Source of the DNA: Proteobacteria bacterium 005FR1
GTDB taxonomy: Bacteria; Pseudomonadota; Gammaproteobacteria; Pseudomonadales; Cellvibrionaceae
Length of the DNA stretch: 64,000 bases
Reading direction: 5' to 3'
Assembly (NCBI GenBank): GCA_026192395.1
Contig: WACF01000001.1
Coordinates: 2,726,309 to 2,790,308 of the forward strand
Both the position numbers and the translations under genes were made by a program. Shown piece by piece: positions 916-45,613 of the stretch; position 1 is the first letter of the stretch; each line of letters starts with the position of its first letter. Below the pieces are notes generated by a model, which made no database searches, was not told the DNA's origin, and saw only the letters and a program-made list of their open reading frames with translations.

Positions 916-1860
916 TCACCGGGGTGCCGAGGGGTTGTCCGCCAGGGCGGCGAGAATTCTGTCAGCGCCAGCGGCGATCAGCTCCTCCGCCAATTGCACC
1001 CCGATCTGGTCGGCCTTGCTGGCGGGGCCGCGGATTTCACGGGCGATAATCTCACTGCCGTCAGGCTGGCCCACCAGCGCGCGCAGCCATAGCCGGTCGT
1101 CGGACTCGCGAATCGCATAGGCGGCGATGGGCACCTGACAGCTGCCCTGCAGCCGCCGAACCACCGCCCGCTCCGCGTTGACGCAGTCAGTGGTGACCGG
1201 GTGATGGAGCACCTGGAGGCGGTCCAGCAGGTCCTGATCATTCATTCGGCATTCCACCCCCACAGCGCCCTGACCGCCGGAGGGCAGGCTCAGCTCGACC
1301 GGGATTTTCTGGCGGATTCGCTCCTCCAGCTCGAGGCGGATCAGACCCGCCGAGGCGAGAATAATCGCGTCGAAATCACCGGCATCCAGCTTTGCAAGTC
1401 TTGTCTGCACATTGCCGCGCAGGAATTCCACCACCAGATCCGGCCGGTGGGCCATGACCTGGCTCTGGCGGCGCAGACTGGAGGTGCCCACCTTCGCGCC
1501 CTGCGGAAGGTCGTCGAGGCTGGCGTAGTGATTGGAGACGAAGGCATCCCGCGGATCCTCGCGCTCGCAAATGACCGCAAGCCCCAGCCCTTCGGGAAAT
1601 TCCATTGGCACATCCTTCATTGAATGCACCGCGATGTCGGCCCGCCCCTCCAGCATGGCCTGCTCCAACTCCTTCACGAACAGCCCCTTGCCGCCTACCT
1701 TGGCGAGAGGGATGTCCAGCACCTGGTCCCCGCGGCTGGTTAGCGGGACCAGCTCGATGGTGAGGTCCGGGTGATGGGTTTCCAGCTGTTTTTTAACGTA
1801 TTCCGCCTGCCAGAGGGCTAGAAGGCTTTTACGGGTGGCAATGCGAAGAACCTGGGACAT
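916..1860 (-). CDS. hemC: Hydroxymethylbilane synthase (porphobilinogen deaminase)
   Basis: 314 aa, normal family length. It joins four porphobilinogen units into hydroxymethylbilane in the cytoplasm. Visible blocks: [18 protein letters not shown] at the start, [46 protein letters not shown] and the cofactor-binding region [11 protein letters not shown], where the Cys carries the dipyrromethane primer. First gene of a hemC-hemD-hemX unit. A sigma70-like promoter lies about 50 bp upstream of the ATG. Confidence 0.97.
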
Positions 1861-39314: not shown

Positions 39315-39953
39315 TTAACCGCCCCGCTCTTCTCTGATCTGCTCTACGAGATAATCGGCAACTTTCAGCATGGTCTCGTGATCGACGCTGGCGCTGGGAT
39401 CTATCACATAGCGGCCGTCCACGATCAGGCTCGGCGTGCCACTGATCCGGGCACCGGCGATCTTCGACTCACCTTGCTTCAACTGACTGGTAATCCCGAA
39501 GGAATTGAAGGTCTTGTTGAACGCTTCACGATCCACGCCATGCTGAGCAAAGAAGTCGGCGAGCTGCTCCTGAGTCTGCAGTCGCTTGCGTTCTACATGC
39601 AAAGCTCTGAACAGCGGCGTATGGACCTTGTCCATCACGCCCAGAGCCTTGGCGGTGTACAGCGCTCGAGCCAGATTCTCGGTGGTACGGTCCCACTTCA
39701 CGTGCAGCTGCACGAAATTCACGTCCTGCGGCATGTCCTGCTTCCACTTCTGCAGCAGTGGCTCGAAGTTGAAGCAGTGTCCGCAGGCGTAGGAGAAAAC
39801 CTCGGCCACCTCGATCTTGGATGGCTGACGCACCGGCACAGGATTGTCGAGGCGCTTGTAGTGAGTGCCTTCCTCGTAGGTCTGGGCCACGACCGGCAGT
39901 GCCAGCACCATTGATGCCACTAGCGCCGTGGCGATTTTGCTAAATAGATTCAT
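39315..39953 (-). CDS. dsbA: Thiol:disulfide interchange protein DsbA
   Basis: 212 aa with signal peptide (IATALVASMVLALPVVAQ). Mature start YEEGTHYKRLDNPVP. Active site FSYACGHCFNFEP (CGHC) and cis-Pro loop RISGTPSLIVDGRYVI. It introduces disulfides into periplasmic proteins. It lies directly downstream of a second DsbA (56 bp) and of cytochrome c4 on the same strand. Confidence 0.95.
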   Translation of the reverse strand: MNLFSKIATALVASMVLALPVVAQTYEEGTHYKRLDNPVPVRQPSKIEVAEVFSYACGHCFNFEPLLQKWKQDMPQDVNFVQLHVKWDRTTENLARALYTAKALGVMDKVHTPLFRALHVERKRLQTQEQLADFFAQHGVDREAFNKTFNSFGITSQLKQGESKIAGARISGTPSLIVDGRYVIDPSASVDHETMLKVADYLVEQIREERGG

Positions 39954-40009
39954 AGTGTTTGCCTTTCTCTTTGCCTTTCTCTTGCTGGAATCATGCTGCT
40001 GTTCGCGTG

Positions 40010-40666
40010 TTATTGCGCTTTCGACTTTTCCGAGCGGACCTTGTCCACCAGAAAGTCGGCGACCTTGAACATCTCGGTTTGCGGCACCTGCTGATTCGCT
40101 TCGATCCGGTAGAGGCCATGAACGATCAACTGGGGAGTGCCGGTGATCCGGTAAGCGCGCGCCCGGGCATCCATTTGTTTGAGGTACGTGGTCGCGTCCG
40201 CGGACTTGAACAACCGGATCACCTCTTCCTTCTTAGCTCCGTATTCCGCAAACAGTTCGGCTATCGATTCAGCCGTATCGAGGCGCTTCCGATCAATGTT
40301 GAGCGCATTATAGATAGCCTGGTGAACATCTTCCTTGATGCCCAACTGCTTCGCCACATAGTAGGCACGAGCGTGGCTTTCCATGAGGCTGTTCCACATG
40401 GCCGGAATCTGGACAAAGTTGACATCGTCCGGCGTGCTCTTGGACCATTCCAGAACCCGGGGCTCGAAGTGGTAGCAATGGCCACAACCGTACCAGAACA
40501 CCTCGGTCACTTCGATTTTGCCGGGATCATCTACTGCGACCGGCTCGGGAAGCGTATGGTAGTGCACGCCTTCGCGATATACCGGGGTGGACTGCGGCTT
40601 GGCCGCAAAGCTGGGTAAGGAGAGGAAAACACTGGCGGCGACCGCCAGCGCGAATGGGATACGCAT
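40010..40666 (-). CDS. Second DsbA-family thiol:disulfide interchange protein
   Basis: 218 aa from ATG 40666 with AGAGG upstream. The signal peptide is FALAVAASVFLSLPSFA. Active site FWYGCGHCYHFEP and cis-Pro loop YRITGTPQLIVHGLYRIE. Same layout as its neighbour, diverged at many positions, so a tandem duplication is the likely origin. In Pseudomonas-type genomes dsbA lies next to the c4/c5 cytochrome genes and engB. Confidence 0.94.
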   Translation of the reverse strand: MRIPFALAVAASVFLSLPSFAAKPQSTPVYREGVHYHTLPEPVAVDDPGKIEVTEVFWYGCGHCYHFEPRVLEWSKSTPDDVNFVQIPAMWNSLMESHARAYYVAKQLGIKEDVHQAIYNALNIDRKRLDTAESIAELFAEYGAKKEEVIRLFKSADATTYLKQMDARARAYRITGTPQLIVHGLYRIEANQQVPQTEMFKVADFLVDKVRSEKSKAQ

Positions 40667-40827
40667 GTCTGACCTCTTGCGGCGAATGTTCAGTGCGGCC
40701 TGGATCATCCGGAGATGCGGACCACAAACCACTGAAGGGGCTGGGCATACCTGCGACGGTACGTCCCAGCCCGGCAAGACATCGGCATGGAGGCGCGAGG
40801 GGAGCTCAGTGGTCCCGCTAAAGACCT

Positions 40828-41514
40828 TTATTCCGATGCCATGTTCCGGTCGCCCGCTTCACCGGCGTGCAGACCTGCGATGTAGTTCGCAACGCCGAGG
40901 ATCTCCGCCTCGCTCATGTGCTCGGCAACGGAGCGCATGATTTGCTGCTTGTCGTTGGTGCGATTGCCAGCGCGGAAATCGCGAAGCTGCTTGGCGACGT
41001 AATCAGCAAACTGTCCACCAACGCGCGCGTAACCAGCGGGCGCATTCCCGCGGCCGGTTGGCGAGTGGCAGCCACTGCAGGCCGGAACGCCGGTTTCGGG
41101 GTTGCCGAAGCGGTAAATCGACCGTCCCAGCTCGAGAGAATTTGCCTTTGCGCCGCTGTTCAACTGCACTTCGGCTTCCTGCGCGCCTGACAGCTGCATT
41201 TCCTGATCGGCATAGTAGGCGGCGATGTCCTGCAGGTCCTGATCAGACAGTCCGGCGAGCATTCCGGTCATCTCCGGGACAACGCGCTCGCCGCTCTTGA
41301 TTTCTCCCAGCTGCTTGTAAAGATACTGCTCTCCCAGGCCCGCCAGCTTCGGGTAGGTGGGAACGCCGCTATTGCCATCCTGACCGTGACAGGCCGAACA
41401 GACGGCTGTTTTCTCCGCGCCAGCTTCAGCATTTCCCTGGAACTGGGCCTGAGCGCCCTGCGCCAACGCAAATACTCCCAGGAGAATAGCCGCAGGTTTG
41501 GTGAAATTCTTCAT
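40828..41514 (-). CDS. cc4: Cytochrome c4 (diheme)
   Basis: 228 aa from ATG 41514 with signal peptide (AAILLGVFALAQGAQAQ). Two heme sites, CSACHGQDGNSG and CSGCHSPTGRG, each at the start of a similar half-domain that ends with YKQLGEIKSGER or AKQLRDFRAGNR. This is the symmetrical two-domain structure of c4. Periplasmic, donates electrons to cytochrome oxidases. Divergent from engB. Confidence 0.95.
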   Translation of the reverse strand: MKNFTKPAAILLGVFALAQGAQAQFQGNAEAGAEKTAVCSACHGQDGNSGVPTYPKLAGLGEQYLYKQLGEIKSGERVVPEMTGMLAGLSDQDLQDIAAYYADQEMQLSGAQEAEVQLNSGAKANSLELGRSIYRFGNPETGVPACSGCHSPTGRGNAPAGYARVGGQFADYVAKQLRDFRAGNRTNDKQQIMRSVAEHMSEAEILGVANYIAGLHAGEAGDRNMASE

Positions 41515-41733
41515 CGTGTAATCCGTCGTGAACATAGGGTAAGACGATTCTGCGGACCGCAATTTCCACCCTGCGGGGAGGGGGACGGTCGCAAAGGCGG
41601 CACATTATATACTAACCACCCGAATATACTAATCTCTGCGCCGCCCGGAATGGCGATTGGTCACCCTCTCAGCCCTTTTTCCGCATAGAATGGCCGGCCC
41701 CATGGACTGCCTGAAGAGAGCCGGGAGACAGCC

Positions 41734-42378
41734 GTGCAGAAAACCATCGATTTCCGTCGCGCCGAGTTCAGTCAGAGTGCGCCGAGTCTCGCCCAATGTC
41801 CGCCGGATGAGGGCGCCGAGGTGGCCTTCGCCGGCCGCTCCAACGCCGGCAAGTCGAGCGCCATCAACGCCTTGACCGGCAACAGCAAGCTCGCACGGAC
41901 CAGTAAGACGCCGGGCCGGACTCAGCTGATCAATTTTTTCGAGCTGGGCGAGGAGCGGCGCCTTGTGGACCTGCCCGGCTACGGCTACGCCAAGGTGCCG
42001 CTCGAAACCAAGCAGCGCTGGCAGCGGCATCTTTCGGAGTATCTGGAGAAGCGGGAAAGCCTGCGCGGCCTGGTATTGCTGATGGATATCCGGCATCCGC
42101 TGCAGGAATACGACACCAATCTGCTGAACTGGGCCGTGCAGGCAGAAATGCCCGTCCATATCCTGCTCACCAAAGCCGACAAATTGAAAAGCGGGCAACG
42201 CAAGAACACGCTGCTGCAGGTGCGGCAACATATGCGCGAAGCGGAGGTGGATGATCTTGTCAGCGTGCAGACCTTCTCTTCATTGAAAAAGGAAGGGCTG
42301 GCGGAGTTCGTGGTAGTTCTGGAAGGCTGGCTACGGGACTCTGAAGAAGTCGCATCGGCGGAACAGCCGGAGGGTTAA
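41734..42378 (+). CDS. engB: Ribosome biogenesis GTPase EngB (YihA/YsxC)
   Basis: 214 aa from GTG 41734. G1 [19 protein letters not shown]2 [14 protein letters not shown]3 [12 protein letters not shown]4 [12 protein letters not shown] and G5 [14 protein letters not shown] are all intact. EngB is an essential GTPase in 50S subunit assembly. Together with polA it brackets the sRNA region, as in E. coli (spf) and Pseudomonas (ersA). Confidence 0.96.
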
Positions 42379-42462: not shown

Positions 42463-42567
42463 AAAAAAAACCCGACAGCTTGGGGCAACCGCCGGGTTCA
42501 AATACCAGCACTCTTGGGGCCGAGCACTGGAAGTCTCACTGAAACACATTGGGCATATGCTTCAGTC
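42463..42567 (-). ncRNA. Candidate sRNA with three GCCC(C)A-loop hairpins
   Basis: On the minus strand, three consecutive stem-loops: 42566-42538 (12-bp stem with two G-U pairs, loop GCCCA), 42530-42505 (9-bp stem, loop GGCCCCAA) and 42498-42469 (12-bp stem, loop GCCCCA), the last followed directly by eight Ts. A sigmaE-like promoter ends about 6 bp before the first hairpin. The hairpins and the promoter-to-terminator length of about 105 nt are seen in the sequence; transcription is inferred. Repeated C-rich loops suggest binding to G-rich Shine-Dalgarno regions. Confidence 0.68.
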
Positions 42568-42572
42568 GTTCA

Positions 42573-42599
42573 TAAGACTGGACTGCACAAGGAATGTTC
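42573..42599 (-). promoter_or_regulatory. SigmaE/AlgU-like promoter of the three-hairpin RNA
   Basis: GAACAT (42599-42594), 16 bp, TCTTA (42577-42573) on the minus strand, against the GAACTT-N16/17-TCtgA consensus. It would start the RNA at about 42567. Confidence 0.5.
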
Positions 42600-42644: not shown

Positions 42645-42757
42645 AAAAAAAAGCCCTAACCAAATTTGGTTAGGGCTGCTTTGCTATCGAGTAAAAGCAA
42701 GGCTCGGCTTACTACAAGCCAGTAAATAGGAGAGTAAGACACCAATCGAATTGGTAA
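42645..42757 (-). ncRNA. Candidate sRNA at the Spot 42/ErsA locus
   Basis: The minus strand from about 42757 contains ACCAAT-TCG-ATTGGT (42755-42741), a pyrimidine-rich unpaired stretch including CTCTCCTATTTACT, the hairpin GGCTT-GTAGT-AAGCC (42720-42706), TTGCT...AGCAA (42700-42681) and a perfect 13-bp palindromic terminator (42677-42652) with eight Ts. Like E. coli spf and Pseudomonas ersA, it lies downstream of polA and on the same strand, opposite engB. The CUCUCCU stretch is complementary to Shine-Dalgarno sequences. I see no primary sequence identity I can cite with ErsA. Confidence 0.72.
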
Positions 42758-42761
42758 CTCC

Positions 42762-42788
42762 TAGGACTAGCTCAGCCAATTAAAGTTC
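42762..42788 (-). promoter_or_regulatory. SigmaE/AlgU-like promoter of the Spot 42/ErsA-locus RNA
   Basis: GAACTT (42788-42783), 16 bp, TCCTA (42766-42762) on the minus strand. The -35 is a perfect match to the extracytoplasmic-stress consensus, and ErsA of Pseudomonas is known to depend on sigma22 (AlgU). Confidence 0.62.
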
Positions 42789-42865: not shown

Positions 42866-45613
42866 TCAGTGCGCCTGATCCCAGTTGGCGCCACGACCCG
42901 CTTCCACAACCAAGGGCACCTGCAGCTCGGCGGCCTCCGACATCAGCTTGCGCAGTGTTCCAGTCACCTGTTCGACGGCCTCCGATTTCACCTCGAGCAC
43001 CAATTCATCATGGACCTGCAGGATCACTGCAGCTGGAATCCGCTCGTCCGTGATCCACCGATCCACCTCGATCATCGCCCGCTTGATGATGTCGGCGGCA
43101 CTGCCTTGCATCGGCGCGTTGATGGCGGTTCGCTCCGCGGCCTGGCGGCGCATACCGTTCCGATCGTTGATCTCCGGCAGGTAGAGCCGACGCCCCATAA
43201 TGGTTTCCACGTAGCCCTGATCCCGCGCCAGTTGGCGCGTATTGTCCATATAGCGACGTACGCCCGGGTAACGTTCGAAGTACAGATCAATGTACTGCTG
43301 CGCCTCCTTGCGACCAATCCGCAATTGCCTGGCCAGGCCGAACGAAGACATGCCGTAGATCAGCCCGAAATTGATGGCTTTGGCGCTGCGGCGCTGCTCA
43401 TGACTGACGTCTTCGAGACTGACACCAAAGACCTCTGCCGCCGTCGCCTGGTGGATATCCAGGCCTTCGGCAAAGGCGCGCAGCAGACCCTCGTCACCGG
43501 ACAGATGAGCCATGATCCGCAATTCGATCTGCGAATAGTCCGCGGCGACAATCTGGTGGCCCGGTGCGGCGATAAAGGCCTGGCGGATTCGCCGGCCCTC
43601 CTCGGTGCGGATCGGGATGTTCTGCAAGTTCGGATCAGAGGACGACAGACGCCCGGTTGCGGTTACCGCCTGATGGTAGGAGGTGTGCAGGCGTCCTGTT
43701 CCAGCATTGACCATCTGCGGCAGCTTGTCCGTATACGTGGACTTCAGCTTGAAAAGCCCGCGGTGATCCATGATCAACTTCGGCAGCGGATAATCCAGAG
43801 CCAGCTCCTGGAGCACCTCTTCCGCGGTGGAGGGGGCTCCTTTAGGGGTCTTCTTGAGAACGGGCAGCTGCAATTTCTCGAACAGGATTGCGCAGAGCTG
43901 CTTGGGCGAACTGAGGTTGAACACTTCGCCTGCCAGATCGCAGGCTTCTTCCTCGATCTGCTTGAGCTTGTCGCCGATCTCCCGGCTTTGGGCTCCCAAG
44001 GCCTCGCGATCGATCAGCGCCCCTCGCCGTTCGATGCGGGATAGCACCGGCACCAGCGGCACTTCCAAATCCTCGAAGACACGGCGCAGCGGCGGGGTCG
44101 ACTCCAGCTTGGGCCAGAGTGTCTCGTGCAGCCGAAGCGCAATATCGGCGTCTTCTGCGGCGTAATGAGCCGCTTCTTCCAGTTGGATGGCGTTAAAGGT
44201 CAGCTGCTTGGCGCCCTTGCCGGCGATGTCTTCGAAACGCACGGTGGTGTAGTTCAGATAGCGACTGGCGAGGCTGTCCATATCGTGGCGACTGGCCACT
44301 GAGTTCACCACGTAGGATTCCAGCATGGTGTCGAAGACAACGCCCTGCAGATCAATGCCGTGGTTGGCAAGAACGTTCTTGTCGTACTTGAGGTTCTGGC
44401 CCAGCTTTGCCTTGTTCGGGTTCTCCAGCAGAGGCTTGAATCGCTCGAGCACAGCCTCGCGGGATAGCTGTACAGGCGCTCCCTCATAGTCGTGCGCCAG
44501 GGGCACATAGGCGGCGCGGCCCGGCTCCAGCGCAAAGGAGAGTCCCACGATGCGCGCTTCCATGTAGTTCAGACTGGTGGTTTCGGTGTCGAAGGCGAAG
44601 ACTTCGGCTTTCTCGAGCCGCTCCAGCCATTGGTCCAGATGGGCCTGTTCCAAGATGACTTCGTAGTCCGCCTTCGCGACCTCCGCGCCAGAAGCCGGGC
44701 TTTGGCCTTCCCCCTCGAATCCTTGCTGCTCAGAGCCAAGCTCCGACAGCCAGTGTTTCAATTCGTAGATGCCGCAGAGCTCCAACAGCTTTTGGCGATC
44801 GGCGGGAATCGTCAGCAGGTCAGCCGGACCCATATCCAGCGGGACGTCGGTCTTGATGGTCGCCAACTGGTGGGAGAGGTAGGCCTGCTCCTTGTATTCC
44901 TCCAGCTTCTTCGGCAGGGACTTGGCGCCGCGAATCGGCAAATCCGCCACGGCATCCAGGTTGGCGTAAATGTCGTCCAGCCCTCCGAGCGACTGGATCA
45001 ACGCCTGAGCCGTTTTTTCCCCCACCCCGGGGACGCCGGGAATGTTGTCGGACTTGTCACCGAGCAGCGCCAGATAGTCGATGATCCGCTCCGGCGGGAT
45101 GCCGAACTTGTTGATCACCCCTTCCCGGTCCAGCAGGGTGTCCGTCATAGTGTTCACTAACGTGACGTGAGGACTTACCAACTGAGCCATATCTTTGTCG
45201 CCGGTGGATACGACGATGTAATGACCTTGGCGAGTGGCCTCGCAGGCGAGAGTGCCGATCACGTCATCGGCCTCAACCCCCTCGATCATCAGCAGGGGCA
45301 GACCCATGGCGCACACAAAGTCATGAACCGCCTGCACCTGGCTGCGCAGATCATCGGGCATCGGCGGCCGGTGCGACTTGTACTCCGCATAGATTTCATC
45401 GCGGAAGGTTTTGCCTTTGGCATCAAATACCACCGCGATCTGGCTATCGGGGTAATCCTTTTGCAGGCGACGCATCATATTGGTCACAACCAGGATCGCG
45501 CCGGTAGGCCGGCCATCGTGAGTCCGCAGATTCTGCCTGAGCATGGCATGGTAGGCGCGGTACAGGTAGGAGGAGCCGTCCACAAGGACCAAAGGAGCTG
45601 TTTTTGAATTCAT
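42866..45613 (-). CDS. polA: DNA polymerase I
   Basis: 915 aa, full-length three-domain enzyme. 5'-3' exonuclease ([44 protein letters not shown]), 3'-5' exonuclease with the active Asp/Glu in [11 protein letters not shown] and ALEPG...YVPL, and polymerase with [17 protein letters not shown] (motif A region: [17 protein letters not shown]), motif [22 protein letters not shown] and motif [12 protein letters not shown]. All catalytic acids are present. Replication repair and Okazaki maturation. Confidence 0.98.

Follow-up and report, generated by a model that had tools for sequence, protein, structure and literature searches.

Which RNAs the gap between the convergent genes polA and engB encodes was the question raised by this locus. 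In the window, meaning the whole analysed stretch of 64,000 nt, polA (DNA polymerase I; 42866-45613, minus strand) was recognized from its open reading frame and translation, and engB (ribosome biogenesis GTPase of the YihA/YsxC type; 41734-42378, plus strand) from its open reading frame. Two sRNA-like units were located in the gap, both on the minus strand, with polA as the upstream neighbour on the same strand and engB as the convergent downstream neighbour. In enterobacteria, Spot 42 likewise lies in a gap adjoining polA. The polA-engB gap is the site of ErsA in Pseudomonas (PMC8575079), and sX13 of Xanthomonas is encoded downstream of polA (PMC3771888). In relatives, polA was located by its C-terminus, and an engB homologue was present in 100 of 100 family genomes. 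Beyond engB, two neighbouring minus-strand genes (39315-40777) were judged by eye from their translations to encode DsbA-like thiol:disulfide interchange proteins, and the gene preceding this pair (40828-41562), read in the same way, a two-haem cytochrome c-like protein.

Structure and promoters of the two units

The unit described in the first-pass annotation, here called unit 2, is a predicted sRNA of ~105 nt (42463-42568, minus strand), its start site being placed from the -10 element. Direct reading of the minus strand found the hairpins, loops, T8 run and GAACAT-N16-TCTTA element of that annotation all in place. Hairpin 1 (HP1, 42538-42566) has a stem of 12 bp and a GCCCA loop and forms the variable 5' part. 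Hairpin 2 (HP2, 42505-42530), the conserved core, has 9 bp and the loop GGCCCCAA. Hairpin 3 (HP3) together with its U8 tail (42463-42499; stem-loop 42498-42469, T8 42470-42463) forms an intrinsic terminator with 12-13 bp and the loop GCCCCA. Both the minimum-energy fold and the centroid consisted of exactly these three hairpins. The 105-nt segment folded at -49.2 kcal/mol compared with -27.6 +/- 3.2 kcal/mol for shuffled sequences (z = -6.7), and none of the 200 shuffles was as stable. In a 1.2-Mb part of the genome, 84 strong terminators were counted and only two had a CCCC apical loop, indicating that C-rich loops are unusual here. A small peptide was also considered as a product of unit 2 and rejected; the sole frame seen, ATG-CCC-AAT-GTG-TTT-CAG-TGA, sits in the unconserved HP1.

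Upstream of unit 2 lies a putative sigma-E/AlgU-type promoter, GAACAT-N15-GTCTTA (42573-42599, minus strand), of a class common to the homologous gaps. Its -35 element, GAACAT (42599-42594), has one mismatch to GAACTT, and its -10 element is GTCTTA (42578-42573); the TCTTA within it (42577-42573) is separated from GAACAT by 16 nt and lies 6 nt 5' of HP1. The pattern GAACWT-N14-16-GTCYTA matched twice in the 64 kb, both times in the polA-engB gap, where 0.04 matches were expected in the window.

The other match belongs to a second sRNA-like unit just upstream (unit 1), which is absent from the first-pass annotation and spans 42788-42645 with its promoter. This promoter, GAACTT-N15-GTCCTA (42762-42788, minus strand), was assigned to the same sigma-E/AlgU type by motif match and aligned with those of relatives. 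The predicted sRNA itself (42645-42756, minus strand) is suggested by its fold and by homologous promoter and terminator units in relatives; its terminator ends with T8 (42652-42645), and the fold of 42648-42745 gave a z of -4.4. Near its 5' end, the motif TGTCTTACTCTCC (42729-42741, minus strand) occupies invariant alignment columns and, in the form TGTCTT(A/G)CTCTC, was unchanged across seven aligned sequences. It has complementarity to Shine-Dalgarno type sites reading GGAGAG, a sequence that peaks upstream of gene starts.

In relatives of the same family, the polA-engB gap usually contains two head-to-tail units. The promoter pattern occurred 46 times in polA-sense orientation in 29 family gaps, against 2 antisense occurrences and a mean of 1.7 in shuffles. 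At least one promoter-terminator unit was present in 27/29 gaps and at least two in 17/29. This conservation of the sigma-E-type promoter in related gaps favours the earlier proposal of a separate sRNA gene, and on sequence grounds unit 2 is, very probably, a genuine gene for a small regulatory RNA. In one relative (locus L111, 1042-1108), unit 2 is inverted as a block within the gap together with its own promoter, which points to a self-contained transcription unit. Downstream of polA in another (L084), two near-identical tandem copies of the unit-1 type RNA are the mark of a recent duplication.

Conservation of hairpins and loops in relatives

The homologues of unit 2 were compared by covariance models. 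With MAFFT, the stems of 15 diverse homologues were misaligned and no consensus structure emerged. The alignment for model R1, comprising HP2 and the terminator, was therefore seeded with five sequences of uniform geometry, all from relatives with the window left out, followed by alignment to the covariance model. The best R1 match in the 64-kb window was 42467-42534 (36.4 bits, E 1.4e-7), the next best having an E of 1.8. Across the 4.34-Mb genome, unit 2 was the sole confident match (E 9.5e-6; next best 9.55). Unit 2 also fell within the group defined with model R2, in which a match to HP2 and the terminator lies at the polA-engB gap and shows covariation.

Covariation was scored on 29 rows of family matches; the window is one of them, and the lowest few rows are weak. 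In this alignment, 94.8% of the cells were paired, a percentage that is partly built in because the model structure guided the alignment; with the partner shifted by one column, pairing fell to 37%. Two-sided compensatory changes were observed in 18/18 pairs of HP2 and HP3 (9/9 each), with 115 compensatory two-sided cells compared with 29.8 in shuffles. Fitting to the model structure does not account for the presence of two-sided changes at every pair.

The HP2 loop CCCC was kept in all 25 close homologues. In the terminator loop, CCC was retained in 14 of the 25 and the C run was lost in the other 11. HP1 was not conserved as a hairpin, the 5' leaders of the homologues differing in both sequence and structure, and a third C-loop hairpin recurs in some relatives (L112, L128, L130, L092 and L115). 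The expectation that stems would differ around a constant loop was thus borne out for HP2; the three hairpins as one conserved unit did not survive the comparison, owing to HP1. Relatives lacking the stems and GCCCA-type loops, named beforehand as the result that would speak against the unit, were not encountered for HP2 and HP3.

Relationship to ErsA, sX13 and other RNAs

At curated cut-offs, Rfam gave no match in the 64-kb window, and all matches from a permissive search of the gap lay below cut-off. The ErsA (Pseudomon-1, RF01719) model scored 27.2 bits on unit 2, below its cut-off of 50, and had no match in genome G000 at E 0.001. The features common to ErsA and the window are the polA-engB gap (the site of ErsA at loci L218-L226), a C-rich hairpin preceding a terminator whose loop is likewise rich in C, and a U tail. 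ErsA depends on sigma22 (PMC7565897). The promoter GAACTT-N-GTCnnA was present in all nine genomes with an ErsA match above cut-off, and the window promoters are of like type; going by the sequence motif alone, both window units carry the sigma22/AlgU-type promoter that marks ErsA. The ErsA leader, CTCCT-TGTGTTTAGTGTTGGCA, which also occurs in families f8 and f35, is absent from both window units. Unit 2 has the GCCCA hairpin in place of this leader, and a second unit upstream.

Like sX13 (RF02232, Xanthomonadaceae), unit 2 is situated downstream of polA, has C-rich loops on its three stem-loops and possesses an intrinsic terminator; the lengths are ~115 nt for sX13 and, as predicted, ~105 nt for unit 2. 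The stem sequences differ, the sX13 model (cut-off 50 bits) had no match in the window region or in G000, and the two true sX13 loci examined (L333 and L334), both adjoining polA, were without a sigma-E-type promoter. Weaker sX13 matches at L339-L341, L344 and L346 lay away from polA and were set aside as apparent chance matches or repeats. By description, unit 2 also resembles the alpha-r7 sRNAs, which belong to a different class of bacteria, the alphaproteobacteria, and have three stem-loops with apical C-rich motifs at the polA locus (PMC3771888). The first-pass annotation, which knew of no described family with such an arrangement, can therefore be corrected, as sX13 (three C-rich-loop stem-loops, downstream of polA) and ErsA (polA-engB gap, AlgU/sigma22, C-rich hairpins) are both known. 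In sequence terms, unit 2 is below the curated cut-offs of ErsA, sX13 and Spot 42, yet it has location, promoter class and architecture in common with ErsA, and location and the three-C-loop layout in common with sX13; it is very probably a distant cousin of both.

Could unit 1 be a true relative of spf, and the locus the functional counterpart of Spot 42 in carbon control? The locus is the same, and the Spot 42 model (RF00021, enterobacteria and vibrios) scored 28.7 bits on 42645-42781. This is far under its cut-off of 80 bits, however, and the unrelated NsiR1 and VrrA models matched the same terminator about equally. Spot 42 is also without the C-rich triple hairpin, and both window promoters are of the sigma-E type whereas spf is cAMP-CRP-repressed, leaving this explanation hardly credible.

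Beyond the family, model R2 gave strong matches of up to 52 bits in f28, a different family within the order; the majority of these lay in the polA-engB gap. Family f20, presumably Pseudomonadaceae, was the only one in which the ErsA model exceeded its cut-off; scores in f2, f8, f35 and f44 fell short of it, and some f8 genomes had two tandem ErsA-model matches. In a genome from another gammaproteobacterial order (G503; L328, ~1075-1815, minus strand), a single polA-engB gap contained four head-to-tail units, all of which have three C-loop hairpins and a sigma-E-type promoter, GGAACTC/A-N-GGTCTGACC. One of these units scored 48.3 bits with the sX13 model (cut-off 50) and another 37.1 bits with the ErsA model, so that the array bridges both families; single units also matched the anti-hemB and ar14 models below cut-off.

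C-loop units were also seen away from polA. In genomes G238, G154 and G261 (loci L251, L254, L255 and L264), units combining a GAAC-N-TTCTTA promoter with a C-loop terminator were present in up to 11 dispersed copies per genome and appear to be an amplified sRNA family. Extra C-loop terminator hairpins outside polA at L262 (G018:C12:153177-153220) and L263 (G004:C1:1840086-1840147) may be paralogues or chance matches.

A common origin can be postulated for these RNAs, with the chances for and against it evenly balanced. ErsA, sX13 and the window RNAs would then be branches of one old gammaproteobacterial polA-engB sRNA gene, ancestrally sigma-E-driven and with C-rich loop hairpins. Repeated local duplication, to two units here and four in G503, and divergence of the paralogues in their loops or seeds would have built up a whole set of envelope-stress RNAs at this single site.

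Possible mode of action and significance

Taken as a whole, the gap is best read, with a probability of about 0.72, as a tandem pair of sigma-E-type sRNA genes whose C-loop RNAs act in trans on G-rich ribosome-binding sites. Structure, covariation, the kept loops, promoters, terminators, synteny, the tandem arrangement and the presence of RpoE and Hfq genes are seen in the sequence; that units 1 and 2 are transcribed and controlled by sigma-E, how they pair and with which targets, we infer, the pairing mechanism by analogy. The genome encodes one RpoE above the cut-off (328.8 bits), and GAACTT-N15-GTCTAG lies upstream of the rpoE gene itself. Envelope stress would free RpoE, and this RpoE/AlgU-type sigma factor would transcribe both units independently. 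Unit 2 would yield a stable RNA of ~105 nt that ends at its own terminator and exposes C-rich apical loops. Its CCCC loops would pair in trans with G-rich ribosome-binding sites and so hold down the translation of a set of mRNAs in the manner of sX13, and unit 1 would probably do a related job through its exposed CUCUCC segment. The earlier suggestion that the C-rich loops bind G-rich Shine-Dalgarno sites has an experimental precedent in sX13, where both the 4C loops and the 4G motifs of the targets are needed for repression (PMC3771888), and is carried over to unit 2 by analogy. This mode of repression by sX13 does not require Hfq.

The target scans covered 1.2 Mb of the genome and ~940 crude gene starts. 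In the duplex scan at -16 kcal/mol, the real loops gave 48 hits and the reversed and shuffled controls 30 and 63, respectively; with no excess over the controls, no target set is supported. The motif scan upstream of gene starts in the 1.2 Mb found nothing beyond a generic Shine-Dalgarno enrichment, and the start chooser itself favours such sites. The best single predicted sites belonged to a FimV-like and a TonB-dependent-receptor-like gene, both named by eye from their N-termini, and serve as leads only.

Pairing mode is the least certain step, since ErsA, unlike sX13, reportedly uses an unstructured leader, binding amrZ, algC and anr through a U-rich stretch and not through its C-rich loops. 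The same sigma-E-driven gene could accordingly produce an RNA that pairs with Hfq's aid via a single-stranded leader or spacer, its C-rich loops serving stability or protein contact. Hfq is encoded in the genome, and a U8 tail would suit it. Unit 2, however, has almost no conserved single-stranded stretch; conservation is greatest in the HP2 loop, whereas the leaders vary, which makes leader pairing unlikely. The loops might instead titrate a protein. Titrating RNAs such as CsrB/RsmZ are built in this way, repeating the same loop within a molecule and across tandem units; unit 2 would then bind a C-rich-loop-binding protein rather than mRNAs. The loops are nevertheless without the GGA motif of the CsrA/RsmA class, and we know of no protein preferring C-rich loops in these bacteria. 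Given also that sX13, the closest RNA in layout, represses via 4C-4G pairing (PMC3771888), titration appears very improbable.

An equally improbable explanation is that the hairpins are mere terminators or polA 3' UTR structure with no regulatory function, as might be supposed from the position of unit 2 behind polA and the intrinsic terminator that closes it. Against it, unit 1 upstream already finishes with a strong terminator, both units are preceded by conserved promoters of their own, the L111 inversion took the promoter along with unit 2, and an invariant CCCC loop in a separate hairpin would be superfluous for termination. The tandem pair of trans-acting C-loop sRNA genes is accordingly preferred.

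ErsA and sX13 have been treated in the publications considered here as genus- or family-bound RNAs, and the authors of the 2013 sX13 paper raised the question of similar RNAs being encoded at polA in other bacteria (PMC3771888). The comparisons made here answer it in the affirmative for many Pseudomonadales families, in which duplication of these sRNAs is common and most of them have a sigma-E-type promoter. New here are the tandem pair, the conservation throughout the family, and sequences that bridge ErsA and sX13 by scoring on the models of both. The covariance model can be used for annotating polA-locus C-loop sRNAs, and a sigma-E sRNA branch becomes testable in bacteria without a described RybB/MicA-type RNA.
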